NCBI GenBank assembly: GCA_951812755.1
Contig: OX638329.1
Location: 3,852,522 to 3,916,521, forward strand
DNA length: 64,000 bases
Reading direction: 5' to 3'
Origin: an uncultured Latescibacterota bacterium
GTDB lineage: Bacteria; Latescibacterota; UBA2968
Shown here: one piece after another, positions 9,630-25,780 of the stretch
Position numbering within the stretch: the first letter of the stretch is position 1
Layout of the letters: each line of letters begins with the position of its first letter
Made by a program: the position numbers and the translations under genes
The notes under the pieces: generated by a model
What the model saw: only the letters and a program-made list of their open reading frames with translations
Told to the model about the DNA's origin: nothing
Databases searched by the model: none

Positions 9630-9638
9630 GGAGACGCC

Positions 9639-10337: not shown

Positions 10338-10461
10338 CACATCTGGGTGGCCCTGATGGTCGCCAATGTCCAATTCGAGGCTATACGGGAACGCCTGGCC
10401 GCGGAAGATCGCATAATCCAGCAAGATCAGTGGTAGAAAAAAGGCCACAGAAAGGACGCCT

Positions 10462-10653
10462 ATGAGCGCAGAAACACCAGAGACAAAACCACCTCATCAG
10501 CCTGAAACTTCCGTTGTGAGGCTGAAGTTTTTCGGGCTGGTCACATGCCGTCCCGAGCAGTTTGTCGATGAATTGGAAAAGCTGTGTGAGAAGTTCACCA
10601 ATTCGCCAGAGGAATACAGCTTCAGTTATGACACGGATTTTGCCGCTGAATGA
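10462..10653 (+). CDS. Small hypothetical protein
   Basis: A 63-residue protein with an AAAGGACG ribosome site. The central part (VVRLKFFGLVTCRPEQFVDELEKLCEKF) suggests a strand followed by an amphipathic helix. No family was recognised. It is in the same operon as RadC (125 bp upstream) and is followed after 13 bp by the next gene. Confidence 0.55.
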   Translation: MSAETPETKPPHQPETSVVRLKFFGLVTCRPEQFVDELEKLCEKFTNSPEEYSFSYDTDFAAE

Positions 10654-10666
10654 AAGGAATCCCCCA

Positions 10667-10999
10667 ATGGCAAAATATGAAGGCGCACCACCAGAGATTG
10701 CCGAGGCAATCAAACAATCCACCATTATTCCAGGAGGCAATATGCCCCAACCGGAGATAACCTTCAGACATGGCCTTTGCTCTGCGTCTATTTTCGAGAA
10801 TGAATTTACACGCGGAGAGGAGAAGTTCACCGTCCGCACCGTCACTTTTCAGCGCAGTTATTTGGACAAAGATGGCAACTGGCAGACCACCAACAGCTTG
10901 AAGACGAATGATATACCGAAAACTGTCCTTGTCTTGAACAAAGCCTATGAGTTTTTGACTTCCAACAGCTTTGCTGATGCGTGCGCCGATGCTGAATAG
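10667..10999 (+). CDS. Hypothetical protein
   Basis: A 110-residue protein starting at ATG 10667 after GAAAGGAAT. The middle (about 25-90) is beta-rich: FRHGLCSASIFENEF, KFTVRTVTFQRSYLDKDGNW. This looks like a small domain seen in plasmid proteins of unknown role. The longer upstream frame overlaps the preceding gene and is unlikely to be translated. It precedes the annealing protein gene. Confidence 0.6.
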   Translation: MAKYEGAPPEIAEAIKQSTIIPGGNMPQPEITFRHGLCSASIFENEFTRGEEKFTVRTVTFQRSYLDKDGNWQTTNSLKTNDIPKTVLVLNKAYEFLTSNSFADACADAE

Positions 11000-11078
11000 C
11001 CGTACCGCCGGTGCAGTCAACCGATCACCTGGGCGGCTCTGGTCGCCCACAACCCCCAACCATTGAAAGGACTTTCAA

Positions 11079-11831
11079 ATGGCTATCACAGAAGCAGATC
11101 TGCTTCCTGAAGTCGATGTTGAGCAACTTATCGGAGAGTGCTACACGCCCTTTCCTCAAAACGTCATCAAAATTCGTCAGGATGCAGGAACAGGCAATAA
11201 ACCCCTGTCCTATGTGGGACACCCCGAATATACCCGGCGCCTCGATGCGCTGTTCCCATTCGCCTGGGACTACAAGACCGAAGTGGCAGGACTCACAGAC
11301 ACAACCGTTGCAGTCAAAGGCTCTCTCTCGATCACCTTGGCCGATGGCAGAACGATCACCCGCGAAAACTTTGGCAATGGATCCATTAACCGCGGGTTTC
11401 CTCTTGGCGATGCAATGAAAGTTGCTGCGGTCGATGCGCTTAAGAAGTGCTGCTCTACTTTTGGGATTGGGCTACATCTCTACGATGGAGATGATCTTGA
11501 CAACCGCACGAGTCCGGGCAATAATGGTCAGCATCACAACGGCCAGCCGCCAAACTCCGGCATCGAAGATCCTGGACACGATTGGCTGAATGATCCCAAC
11601 CCGCCGCCGCGTGAACAAAAAGACGAACACCGATATGACATAGGCAATGATCCCTCACCCGCCACATCGAAGCAGGTTCTGGCACTGCAAAACATCGCCA
11701 AAAACTCAAGAACGGATCCCGACCTCAAAGACGAGATAAACAAAAAATTAAATACGCCCGCGCCTAATGATGGTGTAAGAATCAGCAAAAAAGAGGCATC
11801 GGATCTCATATCGAAAGCCTTTGACAAATAA
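11079..11831 (+). CDS. Rad52/22-like single-strand annealing protein
   Basis: A 250-residue protein probably binding single-stranded DNA and promoting annealing. Residues about 40-135 carry the pattern of the Rad52/Rad22 fold: YVGHPEYTRRLDALFPFAWDYKTEV, then a strand (VAVKGSLSITLADGRTI) and GDAMKVAAVDALKKCCSTFGIGLHLYD. A polar, probably disordered segment follows (about 140-200), then a helical tail. Its ATG follows GAAAGGACT. RadC, this protein and the replication genes suggest recombination-dependent maintenance of the element. Confidence 0.8.
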   Translation: MAITEADLLPEVDVEQLIGECYTPFPQNVIKIRQDAGTGNKPLSYVGHPEYTRRLDALFPFAWDYKTEVAGLTDTTVAVKGSLSITLADGRTITRENFGNGSINRGFPLGDAMKVAAVDALKKCCSTFGIGLHLYDGDDLDNRTSPGNNGQHHNGQPPNSGIEDPGHDWLNDPNPPPREQKDEHRYDIGNDPSPATSKQVLALQNIAKNSRTDPDLKDEINKKLNTPAPNDGVRISKKEASDLISKAFDK

Positions 11832-11848
11832 CCCATAACCTTAAAGGC

Positions 11849-11905
11849 TCTCAGGGCGATTATATGAAAGTGGCTGGGGGAGACCACTGGATAATCGCTC
11901 TGAGA
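11849..11905 (+). ncRNA. Strong hairpin in the spacer after the annealing gene
   Basis: TCTCAGGGCGATTAT (11849-11863) pairs with ATAATCGCTCTGAGA (11891-11905) with one mismatch. An inner stem AGTGG/CCACT (11869-11873, 11884-11888) carries a G-rich loop. No T-run follows, so it is not a classical terminator. It could be a leader structure for the secreted protein at 12030 or a small RNA. Confidence 0.45.
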
Positions 11906-12029
11906 TAGCTTTAACAATGCTGTTTCGTGCGTTTCTTTTACATCTCCGGTCTCAGCCGCGTAGCAAACACCCCCAACACACAAACCACCAGATAGCCGAT
12001 TACGGCAAACCACAAACAAAGGAGAAAAC

Positions 12030-12632
12030 ATGTTGCGTTTCATTCTGCTGGCAATACTCATTGCCTTTGCATCTGGGGAATCAGGAGCGGATGTTTTCGG
12101 ACTCAAAAAAGGAATGTCAGTCGCGCAGATCCGTACCCTGAACTTGGGCAAGATGAGAATGCTCCCCAATACTTATGGCGAACAAAAGTGGGCGGTGCTA
12201 AGACCCAACACCCCGGAAGGAGCGGACCGTGCGGTATTTTTTGTTGTGCCAGGTAAAGGATTGCTGAAGGTGTTTTTTTTGTGGGATATCCAAACAAACT
12301 CTTTTGGCGATGGCGTTAAAACAAAATTTGAGGAATTAAAAAAAATATTGTCCGACAAGTACGGCAAGGGCGAGACCCATGACATCCTGAAGCCGAACAG
12401 CGCCTGGGATAGACCGGAAGATTGGATGGATGGATTAAGGAGCAAAGACAGGTTATTGGTCTGGTTTGTGGTAGCTAAAGAAACGCCACACCAAAATCTC
12501 CATAAAAATAAAATCGAGACCATCTCCATTCGCACAGGCGCATCGTCGCCAGTGGCTGCGTTTGTTACCCTGTCTTACGAGCTTGAAGGGTGGGCGAAAC
12601 ACGTTAAAGAGAGAGACGCTAAAGAATTTTAG
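12030..12632 (+). CDS. Secreted or periplasmic protein of unknown function
   Basis: A 200-residue protein with an N-terminal signal peptide (LRFILLAILIAFAS, cleavage near residues 16-20) and an AAAGGAGAAAAC ribosome site. The mature part begins FGLKKGMSVAQIRTL, a pattern seen in small envelope proteins where a GM-motif precedes a helix. It has several Trp and charged stretches but no recognised domain. It is in the rightward operon of the element. Confidence 0.7.
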   Translation: MLRFILLAILIAFASGESGADVFGLKKGMSVAQIRTLNLGKMRMLPNTYGEQKWAVLRPNTPEGADRAVFFVVPGKGLLKVFFLWDIQTNSFGDGVKTKFEELKKILSDKYGKGETHDILKPNSAWDRPEDWMDGLRSKDRLLVWFVVAKETPHQNLHKNKIETISIRTGASSPVAAFVTLSYELEGWAKHVKERDAKEF

Positions 12633-12691
12633 AGGTTTTGAGCATATTATCGGTAACACCTAAAACACAGCCCCGCCGATCTGGAGGAATT

Positions 12692-12961
12692 ATGGCAAAA
12701 TCAAAGCGGCCCATTGGTCGCCCAAAGACAACTGATCTGGTCACGTTCTCGATAAAGATTCCCAGGAAGCTGCAAGCCACACTGGACACCGCCGCTGGCA
12801 ATAGTTGGGATTCTCGCAATATGGTGATTCGCAGAATCCTTGAGCAATACTTTTCCGGTGAATTGATGCGCCACGACAAGACGCCTTTAGACTATTCCAA
12901 TTCAATCAATTTTGATTCACCTGAAACACGTCGAGAAGTCCCACACGTCCAGTCAAAATAA
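12692..12961 (+). CDS. Ribbon-helix-helix protein, paralogue 1
   Basis: An 89-residue protein starting at ATG 12692 after CTGGAGG. It has a strand (VTFSIKIPRKL), then a helix pair with AGNSWDSRNMVIRRILEQYFSGEL, and a tail containing TPLDYSNSINFDSPETRR. The same motif occurs in the C-terminal part of the protein at 13672 and in the one at 14281, so three paralogues lie within 2 kb. Binding to DNA as a dimer is expected for the fold. Confidence 0.75.
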   Translation: MAKSKRPIGRPKTTDLVTFSIKIPRKLQATLDTAAGNSWDSRNMVIRRILEQYFSGELMRHDKTPLDYSNSINFDSPETRREVPHVQSK

Positions 12962-12996
12962 CCCGTACTCGAGAACACATCCAAAAGGAGACTTCA

Positions 12997-13290
12997 TTGG
13001 AATCAATCGAGAGAATGAAAGACAGGATTGAGCATATTCAAGAGCAGGACTTCGAGGCGTATCAATCCGATATTTTCGATACAATCGCCCTGCGCGTATG
13101 GAAAGAACACAACGGAGATATTGACGCTATTCTGGCAAAAGAAAGCCTGGAGATCGAGAGCATCGACCCCCAGGCAATAGGCTTTATTGATGGATCCCGT
13201 ATTTCAATGGGATGTGTGGCTCACATCGAGCCTGGCTGGATCCGAAAAGGCGACAGATACCCGGCGAAGCTGTTCCTTTCAGCGGCTTAA
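12997..13290 (+). CDS. Hypothetical protein with TTG start
   Basis: A 97-residue protein; the TTG at 12997 follows AAAAGGAGAC at proper distance and no better start is near. The N-terminal half is acidic and helical (RMKDRIEHIQEQDFEAYQSDIFDTIALRVWKEH). The C-terminal half is short and beta-rich. No family was recognised. The stop codon lies in the loop of a hairpin (13281-13304) that is probably a terminator. Confidence 0.6.
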   Translation: MESIERMKDRIEHIQEQDFEAYQSDIFDTIALRVWKEHNGDIDAILAKESLEIESIDPQAIGFIDGSRISMGCVAHIEPGWIRKGDRYPAKLFLSAA

Positions 13291-13304
13291 AATTTGCCGC
13301 TTTT
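13281..13304 (+). terminator. Hairpin at end of the TTG-start gene
   Basis: AGCGGC and GCCGCT face each other across a 9-base loop containing the TAA stop, followed by TTTT. Confidence 0.5.
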
Positions 13305-13388
13305 CCGTCATTGCGATAGATTGTCTCTGACACTTCGGCGCCCAGGCGTGAAGCCAACACACCAACCCTTAATAAAGTGAGGTATTGG

Positions 13389-13568
13389 ATGGAAAATGTA
13401 ACCCTGGAAATCACATTGCCAGCCGATCTGGTCGAGACAATCTATAAGGCCGCAGACAAAGCCAATATACCGCCCGCCGCTGTTGTTGTCAGCACCTTAC
13501 GGTGGTATTTCACCGAGCATCAAAGACGGCAGCACAAAAGGCCGACCGCCCCAACAAAGCGAGGTTAG
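13389..13568 (+). CDS. Small CopG-like ribbon-helix-helix protein
   Basis: A 59-residue protein; the ATG at 13389 is preceded by GTGAGG. The sequence VTLEITLPADLVETIYKAADKANIPPAAVVVSTLRWYF fits strand-helix-helix. The C-terminal 15 residues are basic. It belongs to a different branch from the AGNSWDSRN paralogues around it. It is probably a DNA-binding regulator. Confidence 0.65.
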   Translation: MENVTLEITLPADLVETIYKAADKANIPPAAVVVSTLRWYFTEHQRRQHKRPTAPTKRG

Positions 13569-13609
13569 AAAAAGTCGCTGGTAAAATCCTCGAGTACGAC
13601 AAAACACAC

Positions 13610-13640
13610 GCCCCTGGCAGAAATCGCCGGGGGCTTTTTC
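13610..13640 (+). terminator. Intrinsic terminator
   Basis: GCCCCTGGC and GCCGGGGGC (one G-T pair) enclose 7 bases and are followed by TTTTT. It lies after the 59-residue CopG-like gene. The next gene has its own CCGGTAACACCGG hairpin and AAAGGAG site. Confidence 0.7.
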
Positions 13641-13671
13641 TGTTTCCGGTAACACCGGAGAAAGGAGCTTT

Positions 13672-14259
13672 ATGGATATTTTGAGAAGCTATTGCAAACA
13701 CCTTTACTGCCTGTTGCCTCCCGTCGAGAATGGCTTTTGCGGCTATCATTTGACGGATCCCCCAGAGGATGAAAGCCATTACTCGGTTTATCGAATCACT
13801 CTTGCCAATGGTCAAACCTTTGTCGAGGCCACAGAGGGCAGAATCGCCGACCGCATCAAAGAACATTCCCGCACAAAGAACAGCCTCATAGGGCAAGGCT
13901 TAAAGCCCGGATCCGTTTGGCGTGGTGAATGCCTGGACACTGGATTATCGAGAGAACAAGCCTTGTCGTTGGTGAAGAAAGAGCAAGCCCGCTCGGATCC
14001 GATCAAACCCGTTGTCCGTTCCAAAACAAACAATCTCAAACTGGTCTCTATCAGGATTAAAGAGCCGCTTCTGGCACTAATTGAGAAGGCGACGGGCAAC
14101 TCGACCGATAGCCGGAATCAGGTCATAGGAAAAGTACTTGATCAGTATTTTCGAGGTGAGTTGATACGTGCAGATGACACGCCCCTTGACTACCTGGACT
14201 CCATCGACTTTGACGCGCCTATGATCAGGCGACCATTGCCACTCACACCCTCACAATAA
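13672..14259 (+). CDS. Degenerate GIY-YIG-like domain fused to ribbon-helix-helix paralogue
   Basis: A 195-residue protein with ribosome site GAAAGGAGC. Residues about 35-110 resemble the GIY-YIG endonuclease fold: SVYRITLANGQTFVEAT, ADRIKEH, then SREQALSLVKKEQAR. The catalytic tyrosine-rich motifs are altered (YIG replaced), so nuclease activity is doubtful. Residues about 122-190 match the neighbouring ribbon-helix-helix paralogues (GNSTDSRNQVIGKVLDQYF, then TPLDYLDSIDFDAP). The fusion suggests that this DNA-binding module is shuffled within the element. Confidence 0.6.
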   Translation: MDILRSYCKHLYCLLPPVENGFCGYHLTDPPEDESHYSVYRITLANGQTFVEATEGRIADRIKEHSRTKNSLIGQGLKPGSVWRGECLDTGLSREQALSLVKKEQARSDPIKPVVRSKTNNLKLVSIRIKEPLLALIEKATGNSTDSRNQVIGKVLDQYFRGELIRADDTPLDYLDSIDFDAPMIRRPLPLTPSQ

Positions 14260-14280
14260 CCCGCAACGAAAGGAGCAACA

Positions 14281-14502
14281 ATGAGCAAAACCAATGGCAG
14301 ATTGAAGCCCAAGAGGGAACTGGTGATTGTTGCCGCAAAGATCCCGCGTGGGATTGTCTGCCGTCTCGACCGAGCGGCTGGTAACTCGTGGGACACTCGC
14401 AACACTGTCATTCGCTCCATTTTGGAGCAATACCTATCAGGGCAGCTTGTGAGAAAAGACAACGCCGAACTGGAGTTTTCCGAATCTATCGGATTGCCCT
14501 GA
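14281..14502 (+). CDS. Ribbon-helix-helix protein, paralogue 3
   Basis: A 73-residue protein with AAAGGAGC site, beginning 21 bp after the previous gene. It has AAGNSWDTRNTVIRSILEQYLSGQL and a shortened tail (ELEFSESIGLP) compared with paralogue 1 at 12692. The N-terminus is basic. It probably forms homo- or heterodimers with the other copies. Confidence 0.7.
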   Translation: MSKTNGRLKPKRELVIVAAKIPRGIVCRLDRAAGNSWDTRNTVIRSILEQYLSGQLVRKDNAELEFSESIGLP

Positions 14503-14512
14503 GACACAACAG

Positions 14513-14683
14513 ATGTTTTCAGGCGAACGGCACACCGCTATAAAGAACATCTGCAAACCTCTAACCCTCGCCACAGACTTCACCGTGACGCTCTCTAAAG
14601 GCCAAAAAATCCCCCATCCATTGGCCGGATTATTCCGGCACATCCAACCTCGCCCGTCTGGATTGCCCCAGGCGGCAAAATAG
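14513..14683 (+). CDS. Possible small protein (56 aa)
   Basis: An open frame from ATG 14513 to TAG 14683 whose stop overlaps the ribosome site of the next gene, in keeping with the tight packing here. It lacks a clear ribosome site of its own. The start region also forms a perfect inverted repeat (CAGATGTT/AACATCTG), so the segment may instead be a structured leader. Confidence 0.35.
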   Translation: MFSGERHTAIKNICKPLTLATDFTVTLSKGQKIPHPLAGLFRHIQPRPSGLPQAAK

Positions 14684-14695
14684 GAGACTCCGCAG

Positions 14696-15022
14696 ATGAA
14701 AGACGATAAGCAATACACCGAGCAAGGCTTTTGGGAGAAGATCACCACCACCGCAAAAAAAGCTGGGCAAGAAGTTGTGGAGAAAGCCCTGCAACTGCAT
14801 TACACGGCTGAATCTTCAGAAACGCCCAGGTGGGTTAAGGTCACGATCTATGGGGCATTGGCGTATTTGATTGCGCCGCTCGATATGATACCGGATTTTT
14901 TGCCTGGGGGATTCACAGACGACCTGGGCATTTTGGCCGGAACGTTATCAGCCGTTATTGCCCATATCACGCCTGAAGTTAAGCGGCGAGCAGCCGAAAA
15001 ACTGGAAGAATGGTTTGGTTAA
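14696..15022 (+). CDS. DUF1232 (YkvA-like) membrane protein
   Basis: A 108-residue protein with AGGAG site. Residues about 45-105 match the DUF1232 pattern: VKVTIYGALAYLIAPLDMIPDFLPGGFTDDLGILAG, where the PLDxIPDFLP motif is diagnostic. Two hydrophobic helices are likely. The family is widespread in bacteria and plants, and its molecular role is unknown. It lies directly upstream of structured RNA 1. Confidence 0.85.
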   Translation: MKDDKQYTEQGFWEKITTTAKKAGQEVVEKALQLHYTAESSETPRWVKVTIYGALAYLIAPLDMIPDFLPGGFTDDLGILAGTLSAVIAHITPEVKRRAAEKLEEWFG

Positions 15023-15085
15023 TGCACAAAAGCATACCAGATTTTGTATATATGCATTAAAGCAGAGGTTTAGATAACTGTTGAC

Positions 15086-15305
15086 GGCCCCGCCTTTGCG
15101 TTGTATTCATGGCAACAGTCCATTGTCATGGCGGAAACCCGATTATGTCGGGTGGCTCGCCCTATACAACAGCCCATTAACGGCAAAGGGTCGCTCCCTG
15201 AGCCGGGTGAAAAGGCGGGGCTATTGTGCGTATTTTCCGCATGACGGTGGACTCTGCCCGGCACTCATTTTTGTGAGTGCCAACCACCTCACGCGGGAAG
15301 TCCAC
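15086..15305 (+). ncRNA. Structured RNA 1 (paralogue of RNA at 18884)
   Basis: A closing stem of 11 bp is formed by GCCCCGCCTTT (15087-15097) and AAAGGCGGGGC (15211-15221). Inside lie GTTGTAT/ATACAAC (15100-15106, 15164-15170), CCCGA/TCGGG (15138-15142, 15148-15152) and AGGG/CCCT (15187-15200). A 3' domain has GTGGACT/AGTCCAC (15247-15253, 15299-15305) with inner GGCACTCA/TGAGTGCC. RNA 2 shares this order of stems with changed but still pairing bases, plus the identical 13-mer TATGTCGGGTGGC. No known RNA family was recognised. Confidence 0.75.
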
Positions 15306-15307
15306 CG

Positions 15308-15427
15308 ATGCGTAAAGCCCACGCAAAAGCTGTACGGTTTTTCAACGACTATTTGGAAGAAATAGAAGCCCTTTGGGAGTACGCATCCCAGGGGGCTTTT
15401 TCTATGTACCCCAACAGGGAGGAATAG
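15308..15427 (+). CDS. Possible small protein after RNA 1
   Basis: A 39-residue frame from ATG 15308, two bases after the last RNA 1 stem, to TAG 15427, one base before the next ATG. The sequence looks protein-like (AVRFFNDYLEEIEALWEYA). However, it runs through a strong terminator-like hairpin at 15367-15401, so it may be translated only if the hairpin is not formed, or not at all. Confidence 0.4.
   Translation: MRKAHAKAVRFFNDYLEEIEALWEYASQGAFSMYPNREE
15367..15401 (+). terminator. Intrinsic terminator after RNA 1
   Basis: AGCCCTTTGGGA (15367-15378) pairs with TCCCAGGGGGCT (15386-15397) over 12 positions with two G-T pairs, followed by TTTTTCT. It would release RNA 1 as a separate transcript of roughly 320 bases, or act as an attenuator for the genes downstream. 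Confidence 0.65.
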
Positions 15428-15428
15428 C

Positions 15429-15836
15429 ATGACTGACATTCAAGACGGCAACGGCCTCGAAGATCGGGACGAGGCAACAGACGAGACAGAAAAAAGCCCG
15501 TCAAAACTTCGGACGGGAATAGGTGGAATGTGGGCATCTATCAAAGGACGCCCCACATTTTAGGCAGTGATCGCGCTGTGCGTTATCACCGTTTTCTTCA
15601 ACACATACACGCTGTTTGTCCTGACCCAGGATGTTCGCCGGTCGATTGAAAAGAAAGCCTACACTTACAAGGTGGTGGCCCCGGACGATGAAGACCTTAC
15701 CACAACCCTGAAAATTCAGGGCGTTCTCGGCTGGCGCGTTGTTCACGCGCGGCGGGCGACCAGGAGAGGCACTAGCGGGCGGGGAACCATCCCCATCTAT
15801 GAACTCATATTAGAGCGCGAATACATCCTTCGATGA
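15429..15836 (+). pseudogene. Membrane protein with DUF4177-like tail, split by in-frame TAG
   Basis: A 44-codon frame (15429-15563, site GGGAGG) ends in TAG, and after one sense codon the same frame continues from a GTG at 15567 for 89 codons. Together they would make a 135-residue protein: acidic N-terminus, one membrane helix (VIALCVITVFFNTYTLFVL) and a C-terminal part YTYKVVAPDDEDL... LGWRVV... PIYELILER that resembles DUF4177. Either the gene was broken by a point mutation, or the two parts are separate proteins with a GTG restart, or the stop is read through. The first is the simplest reading. Confidence 0.55.
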
Positions 15837-15922
15837 TGTGCCGCGCAAAACCGTGAAGGGTTGCACTGTGCTTCCCGTACTCACGCGGCCCTTTGCGGAA
15901 TTCACAGCGAAAGGAGAATCCC

Positions 15923-16852
15923 ATGCCCCCTAAAACCTTCACCATCACACTCAAAAAATTGCTGTTGTTCGGCATTCCCGCCCTGGTGATATTCGCGGCT
16001 TTGGCCGCCGGACTTGTCATTATAACTGGGACTCTTTCAGATGTGCAAAAAGAGCTTTTAGATATAGAAAAAGAGCTTGCTGAGAAAGTCAGCAGAAAGG
16101 AACTTTCTGAACTGCTCGCCAAACGCGACATTAAGGATCAGTTACCCGACAAAGAGAACTCACCAAGGGAGAAAGCACCAAAGTTCAAAGAGCCGTATGA
16201 AAAAGTGATGGTCAATTATTTTGCCGCAGAGACCTGGCAAGACAGGCTCCCCTTCGTATTGCACCCCAACACAACCGAGCCGCTAATGAAACGCCATTAC
16301 GGTATTGGGCAATTTGGAAAATTTGAGGCTACGAATATTATTCCCTATGATGGTCAAAGCAAAGTGGGTATTGGTGAATACATAAGACTTCTGGTTTATT
16401 ATAGAGACCGGCAGGATGGATCCACATCTCCCCCCCACCTGTATTATGTGAAAAGAGTCCGCGGTGGATACAAGGTTGATTGGGAAGCCTCGATGGGCAA
16501 AAATCCAATGAGCTGGAAGGCGTACCGAGCCCAACGACCAACAATGCCGATGCTATTCAGGGTGGTAACAAATCTCACGTCCTATTACAATTATGAGTTT
16601 GGGGACGCACACCGTTCCTATTTGAGCATAAGTTTTGAGGACGGGACGCTCGTCCCCATTCACGGCTATGTCAAAAGGGGGTCAAAAAGTGGAAAACGGA
16701 TATACGAGATTTTGAAGGATGGAGAAAATCACGCCCTGATTGTCAAAATCAGATTCTTGGCTGGCGGCGATCCGTCCAGTAATACTGTTCTGATAGATGA
16801 GCTAATCTCTGAAGATTGGGCAATGAGAAACGGGGAGGAGTTCGCGCAATAA
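15923..16852 (+). CDS. Membrane-anchored envelope protein, paralogue A
   Basis: A 309-residue protein; ATG 15923 follows AAAGGAGAAT. One membrane helix (about 10-38, LLLFGIPALVIFAALAAGLVIITG) is followed by a coiled coil (DVQKELLDIEKELAEKVSRKELSELL) and a linker, then a ~215-residue extracytoplasmic domain. That domain is clearly homologous to the lipoprotein at 19097: shared VNYFAAETWQDR/KDYFAAKNWQER, PHLYYVKR, WEASMGKNPMSWKAY, GYVKRGSKSGKRIYEILKDGE and SNTVLIDELISE. Function is unknown. The two paralogues differ in how they are anchored. Confidence 0.8.
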   Translation: MPPKTFTITLKKLLLFGIPALVIFAALAAGLVIITGTLSDVQKELLDIEKELAEKVSRKELSELLAKRDIKDQLPDKENSPREKAPKFKEPYEKVMVNYFAAETWQDRLPFVLHPNTTEPLMKRHYGIGQFGKFEATNIIPYDGQSKVGIGEYIRLLVYYRDRQDGSTSPPHLYYVKRVRGGYKVDWEASMGKNPMSWKAYRAQRPTMPMLFRVVTNLTSYYNYEFGDAHRSYLSISFEDGTLVPIHGYVKRGSKSGKRIYEILKDGENHALIVKIRFLAGGDPSSNTVLIDELISEDWAMRNGEEFAQ

Positions 16853-16863
16853 AGGAGAAAGAT

Positions 16864-17349
16864 ATGATGCGCTATTTCGCAGTATTGTTCGCATTGCTGG
16901 CAACACACACCATTGACGCGCGTGAACCCTGGCCGCCCAAAGACGGCCTGGGGAAAGACCTACCAAAAGAATTGTCTGCGGCGTACTGGTTCGTCTCGGA
17001 TGCTGACCCCAGAAAGTTCCCTTATCCTGACGAAGTGCAGACCCTTTTCTACGACTTCGACGTGAGAATAAAATTCTGGTTTATGGTGGGCCGAATGATG
17101 CAGATAGCTAAAAGGGGGAACGGCAAAGTTTTGCCAGAGGATGAGGCAAAGTTGAAGGCTACCTTTGAAAAATTTCTCCTGTCGCTTTTTTCCAATAAGT
17201 ACTTTGCCCGTATGCCAGAGTCAAAGCAGAACCAGGTCTCGAAGGGGATGCGGGATTTTGCCACCATAGAAATCACAGGACGAATCATTATGATACACAG
17301 CCTGAACGAGACGGTCCGGGAGGCGAAAAGACAGAAAGAAGGACGGTGA
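16864..17349 (+). CDS. Secreted protein of unknown function
   Basis: A 161-residue protein starting after AAAGGAGAAAG, 11 bp behind paralogue A, so both are probably co-expressed. A signal peptide is visible (MMRYFAVLFALLATHTIDA). The mature part begins REPWPPKDGL and is rich in aromatic and charged residues, with a helical C-terminus. No family was recognised. It is the last gene of the rightward operon and is followed by a terminator. Confidence 0.65.
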   Translation: MMRYFAVLFALLATHTIDAREPWPPKDGLGKDLPKELSAAYWFVSDADPRKFPYPDEVQTLFYDFDVRIKFWFMVGRMMQIAKRGNGKVLPEDEAKLKATFEKFLLSLFSNKYFARMPESKQNQVSKGMRDFATIEITGRIIMIHSLNETVREAKRQKEGR

Positions 17350-17418
17350 TTGACCACAATATTTTGTGGTTGTAATTGTCTGTGGTAACACCACATCTTG
17401 AGGTGCTGGCATAAAAAA

Positions 17419-17453
17419 GTCGCTGGTCTGCGAATGATCAGCGGCCTTTTTTT
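17419..17453 (+). terminator. Terminator of the rightward operon
   Basis: GTCGCTG and CAGCGGC pair around 13 bases and are followed by seven T. Two smaller hairpins (ACCACAATATTTTGTGGT at 17355 and TGTGGTAACACCACA at 17381) precede it. The stretch 17454-17715 contains the 24-bp repeat below and otherwise nothing recognisable. Confidence 0.7.
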
Positions 17454-17632
17454 ATCTCCCTGGCGACAAAAAACGTTCACTTCAAATGCCTCATGCGGCC
17501 AGGGTTTCGGACAATACCTTGAAACACGGCGATTTGTGTCCAATCATATCCCAGGCGACAAAAAGCGGATCGAAACGCTCCAAAATTAAATATGGATCCC
17601 CCGACCAGCCCGGTCGCCAAAGCCCCAGGTAA

Positions 17633-17656
17633 ATTAAATTTCTGATAAAATTACGA
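17633..17656. repeat. Direct repeat, copy 2 of 8997-9020
   Basis: Matches 21 of 24 bases with 8997-9020. The palindrome present in copy 1 is degraded here. The two copies flank the rightward operon. Confidence 0.45.
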
Positions 17657-17715
17657 CCGCCTGATTGAGTATCAAAACCACAACATCTTGACGCCCCATA
17701 TCATTACGTCATAAT

Positions 17716-17967
17716 GTGCAATTTCTGTGGCTACAAAGACAAGCATTTGCGAATGATTTGACGAATGAACATTCTTTAATTGCTGTGTCTGCATCTGCCA
17801 ATCGGTCTAAAGGTGATCGAGACCCCGCAAACTGGCTACCGCCAGATGAGTCCTTTCAATGCGAGTATATCAAACGGTGGGTGGCCGTGAAAGAGCATTT
17901 TAACTTGCGTATGGACGCGACAGAAAGGAATTTCTTGCAAAACCATCAGTGCTTGCAGGATAATTAA
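17716..17967 (+). pseudogene. C-terminal remnant of a DUF1524-type HNH nuclease
   Basis: Eighty-three codons resemble the end of DUF1524/HNH-family proteins: FANDLTNEHSLIAVSASANRSKGDRDPANWLPP, then CEYIKRWVAVKEHFNL. In the family this is preceded by a catalytic His-containing segment; here no such sequence and no ribosome site are seen upstream, so it is probably a truncated relic. It overlaps the end of the convergent gene at 17964 by 4 bp. Confidence 0.6.
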
Positions 17968-18623
17968 GTCCTATACCGTTCCTTACCCCTGCCGTCTAAC
18001 AGAACAAACTGAAGGGGCTGAGACAGGGGCTGAGACACATTACATATAAGGTATCGGTCAGACTTTGCGACTTGTGTAAAGGCGTTGATAGCCGCCTTTA
18101 TATCATCCAGGATAGGCTCAAACCTTTCATTGTCCACAGAGAAAACGAAGACGCGCAGCTCGGCTCTGACTATGAGAAGTTTAGTAAAATCGAACAGTAT
18201 GTTTTTAGTGCCCGTTCCCCATTCACATTCGAGAACCAGAAGGACCTTCTTCAGTGGGGTTTCAGGGGCGAAGTAGCTATCTTGACTTATACCGTCAGTT
18301 ACCAAAAAGCACACATCATAGAGAAATTCTCCCCAATCCGGATTCCCTCCCCTCGGATCATGTCGGACCTCAACGTTAAGTTTCTCCGCCAGACGATCCA
18401 ATTCAGAGAATAGCCGGGTTGTCCAGTACGCGCTACTGTTTCTCTGCTCGTCCGGCCAGTTATTGAGACCTTGGAACGCATCTCGCACAGATTGAATGAT
18501 GCAGCGAGCCAGTTTGTTGCGATATAAAAGATCTTTTAATCTCGGAACGATGACCTTCAGAATAAAGGTCAAAATTAGCCCCCCGACTACTGTTCCTATT
18601 ACTGCGTAGATTATCGTTTCCAT
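17964..18623 (-). CDS. Membrane-anchored putative nuclease
   Basis: A 219-residue protein with one N-terminal membrane helix (about 5-27) and a cytoplasmic domain. The middle part (DPRGGNPDWGEFLYDVCFLV, then KVLLVLECEWG, then DFTKLLIVRAELRVFVFS) has the D...E-x-E...K spacing of PD-(D/E)XK folds. Related defence-island proteins share the LECEWG and DFxKLL blocks. It stands alone in a defence-rich stretch. Its start lies right beside a dispersed repeat (18632-18684), which may have replaced its promoter. Confidence 0.5.
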   Translation of the reverse strand: METIIYAVIGTVVGGLILTFILKVIVPRLKDLLYRNKLARCIIQSVRDAFQGLNNWPDEQRNSSAYWTTRLFSELDRLAEKLNVEVRHDPRGGNPDWGEFLYDVCFLVTDGISQDSYFAPETPLKKVLLVLECEWGTGTKNILFDFTKLLIVRAELRVFVFSVDNERFEPILDDIKAAINAFTQVAKSDRYLICNVSQPLSQPLQFVLLDGRGKERYRT

Positions 18624-18631
18624 TGGAGTTA

Positions 18632-18684
18632 CCCCGTTTTGGTGAAGTATTTAGGACTTGGGTTCAAGCCTGTGATCGGTGCAG
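18632..18684 (+). repeat. Dispersed ~50-bp repeat, copy A
   Basis: Contains GTTTTGGTGAAGTATTTAGG followed by ACTTGGGTTCAAGCCTGTG. Related copies are at 25781-25830 (minus), 28230-28281 and 38155-38206. This copy is followed by CCGTATAGATTCATTACAG, also present near 2243 beside glnS. Probably a non-autonomous mobile or REP-type repeat. Confidence 0.65.
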
Positions 18685-18883
18685 TTTGCCGTATAGATTC
18701 ATTACAGCACATGCTTCGTAAGCTATCGGCGTAAGGGTATGCGATAAACGAGTTAAGATGAAACTTCATAGTAATATATATCATAGAGATTGCCGTCCAA
18801 TCTAAACTTACAAATTAGATCGCAAAGACGGCGGATTTCAAACGGCACATTGTAGAGGGAATTATGTTTTGACTTGCAGAAAA

Positions 18884-19080
18884 GGCTATTGTATTATGCA
18901 GGCATCAACGCTCGTGCGGTGCCCGTATGTCGGGTGGCCTGCCGAATACAATAGCCAATCACATAGGCAAGGGGTAGCTTCCCAAGTCTTGGTGAATAAG
19001 TAGGACTCCCGCATCTCTTACTGTGCGAGTGTTGATACCGCCCGGCACCCAACCGGGTGCCGGATTATGGGCTAACACTC
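18884..19080 (+). ncRNA. Structured RNA 2 (paralogue of RNA at 15086)
   Basis: GGCTATTGTATT (18884-18895) pairs perfectly with AATACAATAGCC (18945-18956). Inside are GCAGGC/GCCTGC and CCCG/CGGG with loop TATGT. Then follow a GGGG/TCCC hairpin (about 18970-18984) and a 3' domain GAGTGTT/AACACTC (19027-19033, 19074-19080) with inner CCGGCACCC/GGGTGCCGG. The order matches RNA 1 although stem sequences differ. RNA 2 ends just before the GGGAGGG ribosome site of the lipoprotein gene, so here it may be its leader. No known family was recognised. Confidence 0.75.
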
Positions 19081-19096
19081 ACCTGGGAGGGATGCG

Positions 19097-19783
19097 ATGT
19101 TACAGTATATTTTGTTGGTTGTTATTCTAATGTTGTCCATTGGATGCGAACAGCAACCCGAAGATGCTATAAAGGATTATTTTGCTGCAAAAAACTGGCA
19201 AGAGAGGTATGCGATAGTATTACAGCGTGCAACAACCAAGTCACAGATGGAATCCCATTATGGTTCTATTTCCTTGGAAGATAATAAAGTTTGGGATATT
19301 GTCCGTATTGACGGCGAAAAAGAAGTCGATGTTGGCAAATACATCAGGTTAGTCGTATGGTACGGTACTCAGGATAGAAAAAAACCCCACCTTTATTATG
19401 TGAAACGGACGCCTGATGGATACAGAATTGATTGGGAGGCATCATTGCAAGATAATCCAATGAGCTGGAAGGCATATATGGCGCAACGTCCATTAAACTC
19501 AATGACATTCAGAGTGGCAGCGGGACTTGCGACGTATTATAACTACGAATTTAGTAATGCACAGCCTGATTATTTTAGCATAAACCTTAACAGCATAGAC
19601 CTTATTCCCTCTCTTTACGGCTATGTCGAACGGGGGTCAAAAAGTGGCAAAAGGATGTATGAGATATTAAAAGACGGGGAGACTCATCATCTCACTGTCA
19701 AGATAAGATTCCTCCCATATAGGTCCACCAGTAATACTGTGCTTATTGATACCCTCATCTCTGAAAGTTGGATAATAGATTAG
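19097..19783 (+). CDS. Lipoprotein, paralogue B of the protein at 15923
   Basis: A 228-residue protein with a lipoprotein signal peptide: LQYILLVVILMLSIGC, lipobox LSIGC with Cys17. The mature domain aligns along its length with the extracytoplasmic domain of the protein at 15923, including KDYFAAKNWQER, PHLYYVKRTPDGYRIDWEAS, NPMSWKAY and GYVERGSKSGKRMYEILKDGE. ATG 19097 follows GGGAGGG at the 3' end of RNA 2. The pairing of RNA plus this protein family occurs twice in the element. No function is known; surface exclusion or phage protection are possibilities only. Confidence 0.82.
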   Translation: MLQYILLVVILMLSIGCEQQPEDAIKDYFAAKNWQERYAIVLQRATTKSQMESHYGSISLEDNKVWDIVRIDGEKEVDVGKYIRLVVWYGTQDRKKPHLYYVKRTPDGYRIDWEASLQDNPMSWKAYMAQRPLNSMTFRVAAGLATYYNYEFSNAQPDYFSINLNSIDLIPSLYGYVERGSKSGKRMYEILKDGETHHLTVKIRFLPYRSTSNTVLIDTLISESWIID

Positions 19784-19877: not shown

Positions 19878-22800
19878 TTACTTATAAGATTCATGTTCAA
19901 CGGATTCTTTCTCAGGAATTCCCAACTTCGGCAAGCCCTCAACAATCTCTACAGTCTCTAAACTCACCGTAATCACCTTCCCAATCAGCTTGACAATGTA
20001 TTTCGGATCATCTTCACTGTTCGGGTCGTTGATAATGCCACTTCGTTTGTCCTCTTTGACACGGTATTGATCAATGATCCATTCCAACGCGGACCGATTT
20101 CCAAGCCGATATTCCAATGCTTCCGGGGGGATCCCGTCGAGAGTCAAGAAATCGTTGTACACAATCTGCGTTTTGTCTTTGGAAAACCTCATCTTTTCCA
20201 CACGCCAGTTGAGAGGCATATCCGGTGTTTCAATGAATGTGAGCGGATATTCGGGCATGTCCTCGTAGCCTATGTGGATTTCCGATAGCCTTTTACCTGC
20301 TTTGGCAAAGCCCCAAAAGCCTGTGCTGGACTTTGATCCAGTATCCGGTGTGAACGGAATGCGCGGCAATTCCCGCTTGAGGTTGGCCCGATACCGCTCC
20401 CTATAATCCGGGTGATGGAGCAGACCGTAAACATAATGAAAGATGTCCCATTTGGTGATTGCATCATCTTCATAATACCCTCGAAATTGTTCCAGAACCC
20501 AATCGGTGACATTCTCACGGCGATTTGTTCCGTCCTCATCGTAGGTGAAGAAGGGAAAGCATTGGGTTCCGCCATTTGAGGAGTTTGAAAATTTGTACTC
20601 AGTGATTCTATTGGCAATATGACATCTAAAAATATCATGTCCTAGCCCACTGACACAAATCACTCGATTTTCCGTTTCTGTCTCCACTGTGGGGAAGATG
20701 GAGGGGAAAACGTAAACTTCCTCATTCAAAATCCGATCAAAGAACAGATGCGTTTTTGTAAAGGGGCGGCGTAGTGAATCTCTTACCTTGTATTCAGCAC
20801 ATTCAGCACTTTTACCTCGTTTCAAGTCCAGTTTTAAGTCCCGGCTCCAACTGATTTTCTTGTCATCATAAACTACGAAATCATCTACATTTGTACCCAA
20901 TTCCCCACGACGTTTCCACCTATCAACCTCCTCGTTGTAAGTTTGAATCGTCCGGCTCATATTCTCAGTGAGGGCATTCCGATTGAAGTTGTAAGCCCAC
21001 ACATCACGACTGGTTTTAATGCCGCTACTGTAAGTCTTAAAAATTACATTATCCACCTCGACCTTTGCAGATTTTGCTTCCCTGGTGCCCATGGGAATAA
21101 AGGTCTCAAATTCGGTGTGGAGTCCTTCTGTGAACCATGTGTATTTCTGATCAGGCGTTATTAGCTTCCATTTGATTTTTCGATAATGTTCCTTTGCATT
21201 GAGATAGCGATATTTGTCTTCCTTGCGCCAGAACTCATCAACACGGGCATAGAAGATTTTCGCATGAGTCTCTGGTTTATTGCTCTTTTTGACGAAAAAA
21301 TTAATGCTCACTCCGACTTGTATCCCAAAGACATTGTGTGTTGTTCCTGAGAGTTTCGGGTTCTTACGGACATTCCCACTCAGGTCCAGAATATAAATCG
21401 CGTCGAACTCCTCTGAGAGATGTTTCCGCATCCCATCAAAGGCTATACCATCGAGAAATCCGTTGTTCGTCACAAAGGCGACAACACCTCCATCCTCAAT
21501 TCGGTCTGATGCCCACCGAATTGCCTTCACATAAGGGTCAGAGAGTGCGTTTTTATTGGTCGCCTTTGAATCTTGTGAATAAGTATCCCGCACTTGCTTA
21601 TCCATCGTCTTATATTTTCTATTCTTGTTGTTGTCATTCTCATTGACCTGTCCAACGTTATAAGGTGGATTGCCGATAACCACAAACATCGGTGTTTCCT
21701 TCTGCCGTTCCACTCTTTCCGCATTCTGCTCCGTGAACAACGCCATCTGCTGTGGCTCTGCCAACTCAAATGTATCGACCAGACATATCCCATCAAACGG
21801 CAAATAATGTCCTGTCGCCTCGTAAAACTCGTGCTCGATATTCATTGACGCGATATAGTACGGTAGAAGCATCACCTCGTTGCAGTGAAGATTGGATGTG
21901 TACTTGTGTTCAAGCGCGGTTTTGCTAATCTCCCGCATAATCCGCACGATGAAATTGCCGGTGCCGACAAACGGATCAATGATATGAACGCCACCATCAG
22001 AAAGCGAACGGTCAAATTCAGTCTGTAGAATATGCTCAACACTTTTCACCATGAAATCGACGATGGGTTGCGGTGTATAGACGATACCGTGTGTATCGGC
22101 AACCTTGATTGAAAAGCCTTGAAAAAACTGCTCATAGACGGTATTGAGAAAATGCTGTTTTTGGGAGAAGTCATTGATCGTTTCCGCTGTCCGTTCAATT
22201 GCTACATAGAAGCGATCAAGATTTTGGAGAAATTCATGACGGCTAAACGACTGCGATGTAAGCGCGTCAATCACTTTCTCAATTTCATTGGCAATTACAT
22301 TGCGGCGGGTGAAATCGGAGTTATCAAAAACAGTTCGGAAAATCCGCTCGGTCAAAAGATGTTGAATAAGCATCTCCTCAACCGCAGCTTCAGAGAGGTT
22401 TGGATTGATTGACAAGCGACATTTGTCCAGAAAATCTGCAAAGGCGGAAGTAAACCGGCTGTTGGTCTGTCGTTCCTTTTGTATCAACTCAGCCAACCCG
22501 TTTCCAATATCGGGCACTATGTCTTTGAACTGCGCGACTGCCCCTTCCCATTCGGCGATCTCTTGCGGACGATGAGCAAAGAAAGTTTGGAGCGTCTCAA
22601 TGAGTTGCTTTGGGTCAGTCAAATCGGCGTCAATTACTCGACGATCATCCTGATAGAGGATCGCCCGTTGTGGCGTCTGGAACAGGATATTATCTGTGGG
22701 ATAACCCGCCTCAAATTTGTGCTGAACTTCTGTTGGCAGGTCATCGTGTATATCCTTTGCCTCCCAATAGCCATGGGACAACCGAAAGTCGTCAATCAAC

Positions 22801-23015
22801 GCCCCATCAACGACAATCCGCTTATTCCGATTGAGAGCCATCGGATGTTCGAGAACGAGCGTCCAATCAAACTGCTTCCCACAAGATTCGAGCAGCGATT
22901 GAAATGCCGAACGCACGGCGGTTTCATGCGTGACGCCGAGACGATCAAATTGATCGAGCGATTCATAATACGCTTTGACTGGCTTATGGGTGGGTTTAAG
23001 GTTGAGTGTTGGCAT
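19878..23015 (-). CDS. Single-chain type IIG-like restriction-modification enzyme
   Basis: A 1045-residue protein combining cleavage and methylation. The N-terminal domain has a PD-(D/E)XK nuclease pattern: Asp70 in VDGALID and Glu85-Ala-Lys87 in YWEAKD. The gamma-class N6-adenine methyltransferase core has motif I DPFVGTG (347-353) and motif IV NPPYNV (449-454). The C-terminal third (about 640-1000) matches the target-recognition part seen in type ISP/IIG enzymes. No helicase domain is present, unlike type ISP. ATG 23015 follows AAGGAAAA. It needs no partner gene for function and none is adjacent. It serves as defence and could also stabilise the element. Confidence 0.85.
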   Translation of the reverse strand: MPTLNLKPTHKPVKAYYESLDQFDRLGVTHETAVRSAFQSLLESCGKQFDWTLVLEHPMALNRNKRIVVDGALIDDFRLSHGYWEAKDIHDDLPTEVQHKFEAGYPTDNILFQTPQRAILYQDDRRVIDADLTDPKQLIETLQTFFAHRPQEIAEWEGAVAQFKDIVPDIGNGLAELIQKERQTNSRFTSAFADFLDKCRLSINPNLSEAAVEEMLIQHLLTERIFRTVFDNSDFTRRNVIANEIEKVIDALTSQSFSRHEFLQNLDRFYVAIERTAETINDFSQKQHFLNTVYEQFFQGFSIKVADTHGIVYTPQPIVDFMVKSVEHILQTEFDRSLSDGGVHIIDPFVGTGNFIVRIMREISKTALEHKYTSNLHCNEVMLLPYYIASMNIEHEFYEATGHYLPFDGICLVDTFELAEPQQMALFTEQNAERVERQKETPMFVVIGNPPYNVGQVNENDNNKNRKYKTMDKQVRDTYSQDSKATNKNALSDPYVKAIRWASDRIEDGGVVAFVTNNGFLDGIAFDGMRKHLSEEFDAIYILDLSGNVRKNPKLSGTTHNVFGIQVGVSINFFVKKSNKPETHAKIFYARVDEFWRKEDKYRYLNAKEHYRKIKWKLITPDQKYTWFTEGLHTEFETFIPMGTREAKSAKVEVDNVIFKTYSSGIKTSRDVWAYNFNRNALTENMSRTIQTYNEEVDRWKRRGELGTNVDDFVVYDDKKISWSRDLKLDLKRGKSAECAEYKVRDSLRRPFTKTHLFFDRILNEEVYVFPSIFPTVETETENRVICVSGLGHDIFRCHIANRITEYKFSNSSNGGTQCFPFFTYDEDGTNRRENVTDWVLEQFRGYYEDDAITKWDIFHYVYGLLHHPDYRERYRANLKRELPRIPFTPDTGSKSSTGFWGFAKAGKRLSEIHIGYEDMPEYPLTFIETPDMPLNWRVEKMRFSKDKTQIVYNDFLTLDGIPPEALEYRLGNRSALEWIIDQYRVKEDKRSGIINDPNSEDDPKYIVKLIGKVITVSLETVEIVEGLPKLGIPEKESVEHESYK

Positions 23016-23394
23016 TTTTATTTTTCCTTCGTCGTATGCTGTATTAAGCGATGTGTGACTTCAAAAGCGAATAGAGCATGGCAAAATTTATAAAAATTGA
23101 TGGCACTTGATGATTGGGTGGACCTTCAAGTATATCCCCTTAAACGGGGCAAATCCAATCTCTCGCAGGCAATGACAAGACAATTCTCGACAATCTCCTA
23201 TTCGTTTATACCTAAAGAAAATACGATAAGATCAAAAAAAGGGCAATTTGCATTAGGTGATGGGCGATTTATGCTATTATCCACCAAAACGGAGCAAGTC
23301 CATTTAGAAAAGTTGGCATAATTTTTGCTCTACTCTGATTTTTCGGGAATTATATACTTTGTACACCCAACTTGATTTTTGAGTGAAAATTGGG

Positions 23395-23423
23395 TTGACA
23401 ATCTTTTGAATAAAGGATAGATT
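23395..23423 (+). promoter_or_regulatory. Sigma-70-type promoter of the defence unit
   Basis: TTGACA (23395-23400), 17 bp, TAGATT (23418-23423). It reads towards the genes at 23466 and onward. The rest of the spacer 23016-23394 is A/T-rich without a convincing gene; a 74-codon frame at 23097 has no ribosome site. A short AAACGGGGCAAATCC near 23137 resembles fragments of the dispersed repeat family. Confidence 0.65.
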
Positions 23424-23465
23424 TGCCTGAAAATTATCAACAACTTTTTTGTCGCCGGAGGGAAC

Positions 23466-23756
23466 ATGGACAGCAATGTGGTAAGACTTTTGGAGGCAGG
23501 AAGAAGCCGGGCTTGGGGATCCTCGGATTCTCCAGATGAGAGAATAGACGACCTCGAACGCTTTAAGAAGCTTTTCGATATTGTCAACGAGATGCAGAGT
23601 GACTTGTACTTAACAAAGACTGGATTAAACCTTGCACAAACGGAAATCACCAGAATGAAGATGGAGGGCCAAAAAGCAGAAAGGTGGGATGATCCTGAAG
23701 TGCTCAGGGAAGAATATCGTGAAGCACGAGAAAGGCTGGAAAACGAAGGATTTTAA
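23466..23756 (+). CDS. Small coiled-coil protein
   Basis: A 96-residue protein with strong GGAGGG site. Most of it is charged and helical (ERIDDLERFKKLFDIVNEMQSDLYL, REEYREARERLEN). No family was recognised. It lies upstream of the TIR-SLATT pair under the promoter at 23395, but a hairpin separates them. It might be a small component of the same system or independent. Confidence 0.6.
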   Translation: MDSNVVRLLEAGRSRAWGSSDSPDERIDDLERFKKLFDIVNEMQSDLYLTKTGLNLAQTEITRMKMEGQKAERWDDPEVLREEYREARERLENEGF

Positions 23757-23763
23757 AAAAGAA

Positions 23764-23784
23764 GGCCGTGCTGGAAACACGGCC
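23764..23784 (+). terminator. Hairpin after the coiled-coil gene
   Basis: GGCCGTG and CACGGCC pair perfectly around a 7-base loop. Only a weak T-run follows, so termination may be partial. Confidence 0.45.
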
Positions 23785-23824
23785 CTCAAAGCAAACACAA
23801 CTTTACGTAAAGGAATGTGAAAAT

Positions 23825-23899
23825 ATGTTAAGTGTTTTCAGCGAAACAGTCAACATATTTGTTGACAATTCGCCTACTGGAAAGGAGTTGTTCTGGTGA
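23825..23899 (+). CDS. Possible 24-residue leader peptide
   Basis: ATG 23825 is preceded by AAAGGAATG, and the TGA stop overlaps the GTG start of the TIR gene (GTGA). The frame contains the palindrome GTCAACATATTTGTTGAC just before the downstream ribosome site. Arrangement suggests translational coupling or control of the TIR gene. Confidence 0.4.
   Translation: MLSVFSETVNIFVDNSPTGKELFW
23849..23866. promoter_or_regulatory. Palindrome upstream of the TIR gene
   Basis: GTCAACA-TATT-TGTTGAC: perfect 7-bp arms, 4-bp centre. It could be an operator or an RNA hairpin lying 15 bp before the AAAGGAG site. Confidence 0.5.
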
Positions 23900-24492
23900 A
23901 TGATGACTCAAAAGAGACTATTCACAACTTAATAGCGAGACTCTACAAACTCGAACTTGAGGGCGCTATCGAAAGAGGACTTTTCTCGGTTATATTCAAA
24001 AAACAGCAGGAACAAATAACAGACATCAACAACAGGCTGAAACGAATAGAAGAAAACACCAAAACAGGAGGTTCTACAATGCCGTCATTGCGAATTTACA
24101 GGTTGTTTATCAGCCACGCGTGGGACTACAACGATGAGTACTACAAACTAACTAACCGCTTGGACGAAGCTCCCAATTTTGAATGGCGCAATTACAGTGT
24201 GCCAGAACATGATCCTGTTGACAGCGACGAAGACTTGAAAGAAGAATTGCGAGAACAGATCCGGCCAGTACAGGTTGTTGTTATCCTCGGAGGTATGTAC
24301 GTAGCACACAGCAAATGGATTCAGTTTGAAATTGACTATGCAAAGGAATTGGGAAAACCGATTTTGGGAATCAAACCTTGGGGGTCACAGAGGATGCCAA
24401 AGGCTGTGCAAGATGCTGCTGACGAAATCGTGGGATGGAATACACCAACGATTGTAAAGGCAATTCGGCGTCTTGCTAAGAAGAAAAAATGA
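23896..24492 (+). CDS. TIR-like (DUF1863/ThsB-type) protein
   Basis: A 198-residue protein. Residues about 64-190 have the pattern of TIR-like DUF1863 domains as in Thoeris ThsB: RLFISHAWDYNDEYYKLTNRLDE, WRNYSVPEHDP, VVVILGGMYVAHSKWIQFEIDYAKELGKPILGIKPWG. The N-terminal 60 residues form a helical region. Translation from GTG 23896 has an AAAGGAG site. An internal ATG at 24079, exactly at the domain start, has AGGAGGT at ideal spacing, so a 137-residue form is also likely. It overlaps the SLATT gene by 4 bp (ATGA). It probably makes a nucleotide signal from NAD on infection, by analogy. Confidence 0.78.
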   Translation: MNDDSKETIHNLIARLYKLELEGAIERGLFSVIFKKQQEQITDINNRLKRIEENTKTGGSTMPSLRIYRLFISHAWDYNDEYYKLTNRLDEAPNFEWRNYSVPEHDPVDSDEDLKEELREQIRPVQVVVILGGMYVAHSKWIQFEIDYAKELGKPILGIKPWGSQRMPKAVQDAADEIVGWNTPTIVKAIRRLAKKKK

Positions 24493-25177: not shown

Positions 25178-25281
25178 AACTTTACACTCCTTTTGGGGTT
25201 ATTATGGCTTCGGGGGGCAAGATTGTTTGTGATTTTTCTGAAGTCAAATTCTTTTTTCACCGCTCTCTCAAGGAGAAAGTT

Positions 25282-25769: not shown

Positions 25770-25780
25770 CTTACGAAAAA

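Follow-up and report, generated by a model that had tools for sequence, protein, structure and literature searches.

Two structured leader RNAs of a Latescibacterota genome as candidate C4-type antisense switches related to sRNA-Xcc1

What is the function of two similar structured RNAs that lie upstream of two related genes in the genome of an uncultured Latescibacterota bacterium? The window, a stretch of 64,000 nucleotides (nt) of contig OX638329.1 (assembly GCA_951812755.1, positions 3,852,522 to 3,916,521 of the forward strand), contains both, termed here RNA1 and RNA2. An earlier note, made from the letters alone, described them as paralogous RNAs paired with paralogous envelope proteins and suggested an undescribed riboregulator, a toxin-antitoxin-like pair or a defence module. 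The observation is partly confirmed by our analysis and the interpretation partly supported. The elements are probably (at roughly 60%, in our estimate) leaders of the type of the C4 RNA of phages P1 and P7 (RF01695): antisense RNAs, matured by RNase P, that would silence the gene downstream of them.

Anatomy of the window RNAs and their homologues

Both copies of the shared motif TATGTCGGGTGGC are present in the window, and both RNAs are structured (folding z of −5.5 for RNA1 and −5.9 for RNA2 against dinucleotide shuffles). R1, a covariance model of the RNA core, scores the core of RNA1 (15147–15262) at 83.0 bits. The parts of the two loci, in window coordinates, are as follows.

RNA1 and its locus
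15081–15109, + strand: promoter (TTGACG, 17 nt, TATTCA), as read from the sequence; expected start about 15116, at strand A
15117–15137, + strand: strand A, the upstream complement of A′, in the place equivalent to the a1/b1 site of P1; the A–A′ pairing is locus-specific
15147–15155, + strand: strand B, GUCGGGUGG; predicted RNase P cut immediately 5′ of it
15157–15219, + strand: hairpin C/D with the conserved internal loop AUACAAYA/GAAxA and the tip GGGUCGCUCCC
15233–15253, + strand: strand A′, the antisense strand, pairing with A at 15117–15137
15254–15262, + strand: strand B′; its pairing with B is pseudoknotted with A–A′
15260–15281, + strand: local hairpin B′/B″, GGCACTCA/TGAGTGCC, an alternative partner of B′
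15295–15310, + strand: A″, AGTCCACCG, complement of A′, with Shine–Dalgarno sequence GGGAAG and the ATG of the leader open reading frame (ORF)
15308–15427, + strand: leader ORF, 39 codons, icd-like; the next ATG (15429) is 1 nt past its stop
15368–15401, + strand: intrinsic terminator within the leader ORF (11 bp, −20.7 kcal/mol, U5)
15429–15836: broken gene with an in-frame TAG at 15561 (MTDIQDG..RPTF*AVIAL..)
15923–16852, + strand: membrane/coiled-coil protein gene

RNA2 and its locus
18869–18897, + strand: promoter (TTGACT, 17 nt, TATTAT)
18904–18921, + strand: strand A, pairing with A′ at 19019–19036
18929–19046, + strand: core from B to B′, 93.9 bits by R1 (B 18929–18937, A′ 19019–19036, B′ 19038–19046)
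19042–19063, + strand: hairpin B′/B″, CCGGCACCC/GGGTGCCGG
19074–19096, + strand: A″ (AACACTCACC..GGGATGCG) with Shine–Dalgarno sequence GGGAGGG, abutting the ATG; pairs with A′ and with CGCATCTCT at 19010–19018
19097–19783, + strand: lipoprotein gene, the putative target of RNA2; its ATG is 50 nt past B′

The order of elements is promoter, A, closing-stem strand B, the hairpin with the conserved loop, A′, B′ followed by the triplet RCC, A″ near the Shine–Dalgarno sequence, and the start codon. A lies upstream of B, and A′ between C′ and B′; A–A′ and B–B′ taken in the order A-B-A′-B′ form a pseudoknot. Across 78 aligned cores, B–B′ and C–C′ covary, a property on which the earlier note had made its proposal depend: 95.5% of the cells pair and 10 pairs are changed on both sides, although B′ was located through its pairing with B and the B–B′ figures therefore lean towards pairing. 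The covariation score is 0.277, against 0.171 for shuffled and at most 0.09 for slid alignments, and RNAalifold recovers both stems independently from the same alignment. G–U cells far outnumber C–A cells (244 versus 35), which argues that the element acts as an RNA of this strand. The internal loop, GAAUACAAYA/GAAUA, is nearly invariant in the 78 sequences, which come from many phyla.

The pairing of A with A′ differs in sequence at every locus and has a median of 17 pairs. A strand's own partner ranks best of 100 in 79 loci, and 91 of 100 exceed the 95% cross-locus control. The result is repeated in 27 of 34 hits of the model search (some of them already in the first set) and in 17 of 20 RNAs of a short subtype described below. 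For A′ and A″, the own site falls in the top 10% in 37 of 93 loci, with a median rank of 14; both window copies show the pairing, and a direct test of similarity between A and A″ was not significant. The B′–B″ pairing is weakly better than its controls (−15.0 versus −13.4 to −13.7 kcal/mol), and we treat it as minor and not locus-specific. In the window copies, strong helices exclude one another.

The flanks of the core are also patterned. A −35 box, TTGAC, occurs 56–72 nt upstream of B in about 35 cases, roughly a third of the loci (320-nt background 31, about 1.6 expected), a spacing that should put the transcription start at A. The start codon, picked by rule, lies a median of 43 nt past B′, within a narrow range. 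After B′ the triplet RCC is conserved (R in 76, C in 81 and C in 82 of 96 sequences; ACT in RNA1 and ACC in RNA2), position −1 before B is U in 59 of 96, and a G is conserved at +1. Terminators are not general behind the elements (10 of 95, versus 15 of 89 in the control), and the leader terminator is therefore a trait of an RNA1-like subset only. One homologue (L154) has a leader ORF with a terminator related to that of RNA1, its leader stop overlapping the next start; in the sister species L176 the terminator occupies the same place, with an unrelated sequence.

These data bear out the suggestion of an undescribed riboregulator, through the covariation, the homologues in many phyla, the upstream promoter and the start codon at a fixed distance downstream. 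The fold first proposed fares less well. Its hairpins GGCACTCA/TGAGTGCC and CCGGCACCC/GGGTGCCGG are present, but it omitted the long conserved pairings A–A′ and B–B′ of both copies, and in its stems GTTGTAT/ATACAAC and TTGTATT/AATACAA the partner of the core is the promoter −10 box. That pairing exceeds the 95% control in 12 of 95 homologues (about 5 expected); it is not general and probably lies outside the RNA. At window positions 18884–18956, a stretch of 20 nt in the RNA2 promoter region is 90% complementary to the core, a feature absent from most homologues.

RNA2 lies immediately ahead of its gene; RNA1 does not, since the leader ORF with its terminator and the broken gene precede the gene at 15923. 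In L176 the RNA1 unit is 96.5% identical over 15080–15334, a block that runs from the −35 box to a little beyond the start codon; identity is 76% in the upstream flank. The matching gene of L176 starts 67 nt past this block, so about 510 extra bases separate RNA1 from its gene in the window, and these contain the broken gene. The second half of the broken gene weakly resembles DUF4177.

The tip of the D hairpin (alignment A2) is often a palindrome of six bases, such as TAGCTA, TCATGA or TAATTA; TAGCTC is the most frequent form. Kissing dimers may form through this loop.

Distribution, downstream genes and the sRNA-Xcc1 branch

An exact core pattern, searched in one genome per species and biased towards conserved cores, matched 105 stretches, with about one chance match expected from its information content. 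In all there are about 100 homologues, seven of them in the window's genome and the others across at least 10 phyla; E-values of the covariance model are rough. Groups with pattern matches are Pseudomonadota, Acidobacteriota, Gemmatimonadota, Nitrospirota, Binatota, Latescibacterota, Chloroflexi, Verrucomicrobia, Poribacteria, Nitrospinota and Rhodothermales. At least one copy is found in 23 of 60 relatives, and matches occur in 20 of 289 evenly drawn Alphaproteobacteria, about half of them of the short form. The nearest neighbour by core similarity belongs to the same phylum in 37 of 78 cases (13 expected); similarity follows phylum above chance but not strictly, suggesting that vertical descent and transfer both contribute. 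By their titles, the source records belong mostly to sponge metagenome series: the jk18x bins come from the sponge Ircinia (PMC9531527), and other series appear to match those of studies such as PMC8163846. The carriers appear to be mostly sponge symbionts, the bacterium of the window among them. At two loci (L159, L160), two to three tandem copies precede a single gene.

A scan of the whole window with Rfam at the gathering score returned two tRNAs only. BLASTN of the window RNAs found no match in phages and only short core matches in plasmids, which led to the short subtype. A literature search found no paper describing this RNA family, most subscription journals lying outside its scope.

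A signal-peptide- or lipoprotein-like start was called, by a simple home-made heuristic rather than SignalP, in 43 of 56 downstream ORFs of at least 60 amino acids, versus 45 of 335 control genes taken from these contigs. The downstream proteins are mostly unrelated to each other, single ones matching LRR, trypsin, DM9, CsgG and surface-lipoprotein families, and no metabolic theme was found among the genes. The window proteins encoded at 15923 and 19097 are homologous, as had been claimed (53% identity over 212 amino acids). The family was found as these two copies in the window's genome and as the decayed remains of a gene in the sister species of L176, located 2 kb behind its RNA1 copy; no relatives were found in viral contigs or plasmids. 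The family is thus narrow and is not a constant companion of the RNA, which elsewhere precedes unrelated genes, and the notion of an RNA-plus-protein module is not borne out. Nor did Pfam, NCBIfam or PADLOC return a match for either protein, to toxin, antitoxin, defence or other families, contrary to the suggested toxin-antitoxin-like or defence role. A PDB profile search gave nothing, and the AlphaFold model of the lipoprotein (pLDDT 43) was not used.

The short subtype grades into sRNA-Xcc1 (RF02221) and has the same core. RF02221 gives RNA2 29.7 bits (E 0.033), below its gathering cut-off of 53, and does not match RNA1; R1 in turn matches the true RF02221 members L127 (28.7 bits, E 5e-4) and L132 (27.4 bits). 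Intermediates (L130, L138, L022) score 51–60 bits by R1, and RF02221 matches the same places. The RF02221 model starts at B or 1 nt before it and leaves out strand A, which the short-type copies examined carry upstream of the core. The 5′ end of sRNA-Xcc1 has been mapped by rapid amplification of cDNA ends, and a Northern blot revealed an RNA of about 100 nt (PMC2996969). In Xanthomonas it is found in integron cassettes upstream of symE (PMC12444791). Like the window RNAs it sits upstream of a gene, symE or, in L127 and L132, an antirepressor with the P22_AR_N domain; it differs in being known as a trans-acting small RNA (sRNA), while the window RNAs have a long D arm. True sRNA-Xcc1 members thus precede P22-type antirepressors, where P1-type phages keep C4. 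One virus contig (G066, IMGVR_UViG_2854132136_000003) carries both a true C4 RNA (28783–28865) and a true sRNA-Xcc1 (7542–7626), so the two RNA types coexist. Two short-type RNAs (L225, L228) precede probable DNA methyltransferase genes, the Pfam match of L228 being weak; for such genes, expression upon arrival in a new cell would make sense.

A C4-like model and its alternatives

The triple complementarity of A, A′ and A″ in the window copies, the pseudoknot, the RCC triplet, the promoter and the leader ORF with its terminator all emerge from comparing sequences; RNase P maturation and the action in trans of the freed RNA on new transcripts we infer. In the model, a promoter-driven 5′ leader would carry its own antisense RNA. 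In the first transcripts A would pair with A′, leaving the ribosome site open for the protein to be made. A cut by RNase P just 5′ of B would yield a stable free RNA carrying A′. Once accumulated, this RNA would cover A of new transcripts, or bind A″ directly, or both; A′ would then pair with A″, and translation would stop. In RNA1 the silenced site would be the start of the leader ORF, whose translation would otherwise keep the terminator open; with translation lost, transcription would also end before the gene, as in icd–ant of P1. The outcome would be brief or self-limited expression, and control would be locus-specific because each set of A, A′ and A″ differs.

The P1 record has the order a1/b1 target sites, C4 RNA, a2/b2 target sites, icd, and ant1 overlapping icd. 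RNA1 follows this arrangement in full: an upstream target copy, the antisense RNA, a target copy at the ribosome site, a leader ORF and the gene. As in C4, the variable antisense part would be the specificity element. The precursor of C4 is processed by RNase P, which cuts it where the closing stem begins on its 5′ side (PMC5320573), and pseudoknots are cut by RNase P in loop 1 when RCCA follows (PMC12710915); the RCC triplet, the U at −1 and the G at +1 fit maturation of these RNAs 5′ of B, as far as sequence can tell.

Several observations weigh against this interpretation. RNA2 shares the order of C4 but has no leader ORF. RF01695 matches nothing in the window's genome (G000) or in G008, G060 and G065, while it gives P1 itself 68.8 bits, and R1 does not match P1. 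The antisense part of C4 in P1 consists of two short blocks, whereas the window RNAs have one long strand. No more than about 22 of 93 loci have an A′–A″ pairing above the 95% control, and the model assigns no function to the conserved internal loop. Since each model misses the other's RNAs, our claim is that these RNAs work like C4, not that they are C4 RNAs. The family further differs from C4 in its A–A′ pseudoknot of about 17 bp, its internal loop, its mostly secreted targets and the intrinsic terminator within the RNA1 leader ORF; C4 silences the P1 antirepressor, while the window genes are not antirepressors. The C4-derived Group 1 sRNAs of Acinetobacter baumannii offer a partial parallel, with many RNase P-type processed, phage-derived copies per genome and a variable antisense part (PMC5320573). 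Like the present RNAs they occur many times per genome and vary in the antisense part, but they match RF01695 and are not tied there to a unit of promoter, RNA and start codon before secreted proteins.

The main rival is a riboswitch, which we consider unlikely though not negligible. Its internal loop would bind a small molecule or ion, a trigger that, with the RNA at work in so many phyla, would have to be universal, and would thereby choose between the A–A′/B–B′ pseudoknot, with the site open, and A′–A″/B′–B″, with the site hidden. The near invariance of the loop, the mutually exclusive helices, the tandem copies and a regulon of unrelated secreted proteins all agree with it, and translational riboswitches likewise combine a 5′ leader, a conserved core and alternative pairing at the ribosome site. 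They differ from this family in its RNase P features, its locus-specific switching strand and its want of a known ligand. A riboswitch leaves unexplained the RCC after B′ and the U at −1, the 5′ end of sRNA-Xcc1 at B, its existence as an independent short RNA, the parallel with P1, and the kinds of gene that follow the short subtype (antirepressor, phage and possibly methyltransferase); the downstream genes, moreover, have no metabolic theme. A plain cis-acting translational or thermosensitive leader, with neither ligand nor trans RNA, is less probable again: it would account for A″ near the Shine–Dalgarno sequence and for the narrow distance from B′ to the start, but the pseudoknot, the invariant loop, RCC and an A pairing kept at every locus are too elaborate for it.

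Type III toxin-antitoxin systems are arranged as a pseudoknotted RNA, a terminator and a gene, an arrangement that RNA1 resembles. That the RNA is an antitoxin bound by the encoded protein is nevertheless highly improbable, given downstream proteins that are mutually unrelated and mostly exported and that match no toxin family. Just as little probability attaches to a DNA site for recombination or transposition acting in place of an RNA. The high identity of the RNA1 unit in L176 against its flank would suit such a site, as would the presence of sRNA-Xcc1 in integron cassettes (PMC12444791), but the strand-specific G–U pairs and the fixed positions of promoter and start codon would not. A group-specific protein regulator was also considered and given a low probability.

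The C4-type reading can be extended, more tentatively and with a little less than an even chance in our judgement, to an undescribed cross-phylum family of leaders. Sponge symbionts would have taken it over as a portable promoter-plus-switch, self-limiting per gene, for secreted host-facing proteins (LRR, trypsin, DM9, surface lipoproteins), and sRNA-Xcc1 would be its short phage and integron branch. If true, this would provide a mechanism for sRNA-Xcc1, an orphan Rfam family found upstream of symE and prophage antirepressors, and would mean that an RNA design of phage immunity became a widespread control unit with which sponge symbionts of many phyla govern their secreted proteins. The family would then also supply about 100 natural and mutually specific RNA switches. 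It also raises the question of whether symbiont surface proteins are made only briefly, for instance after transfer to a naive cell, before their own leader shuts them off.

Neighbouring regions

A second island of the window's genome (G000:C1:965823-970769) contains two further RNA copies (L146, L004) beside paralogues of the window genes at 9088–15022 (RadC, ERF-like, DUF1232), which places RNA1 in one of two related mobile regions. Behind RNA2, window positions 19878–26933 hold a defence-like island composed of a type ISP restriction enzyme, a ThsB-like TIR protein, a SLATT/DUF4231 membrane protein and an FRG-domain protein.

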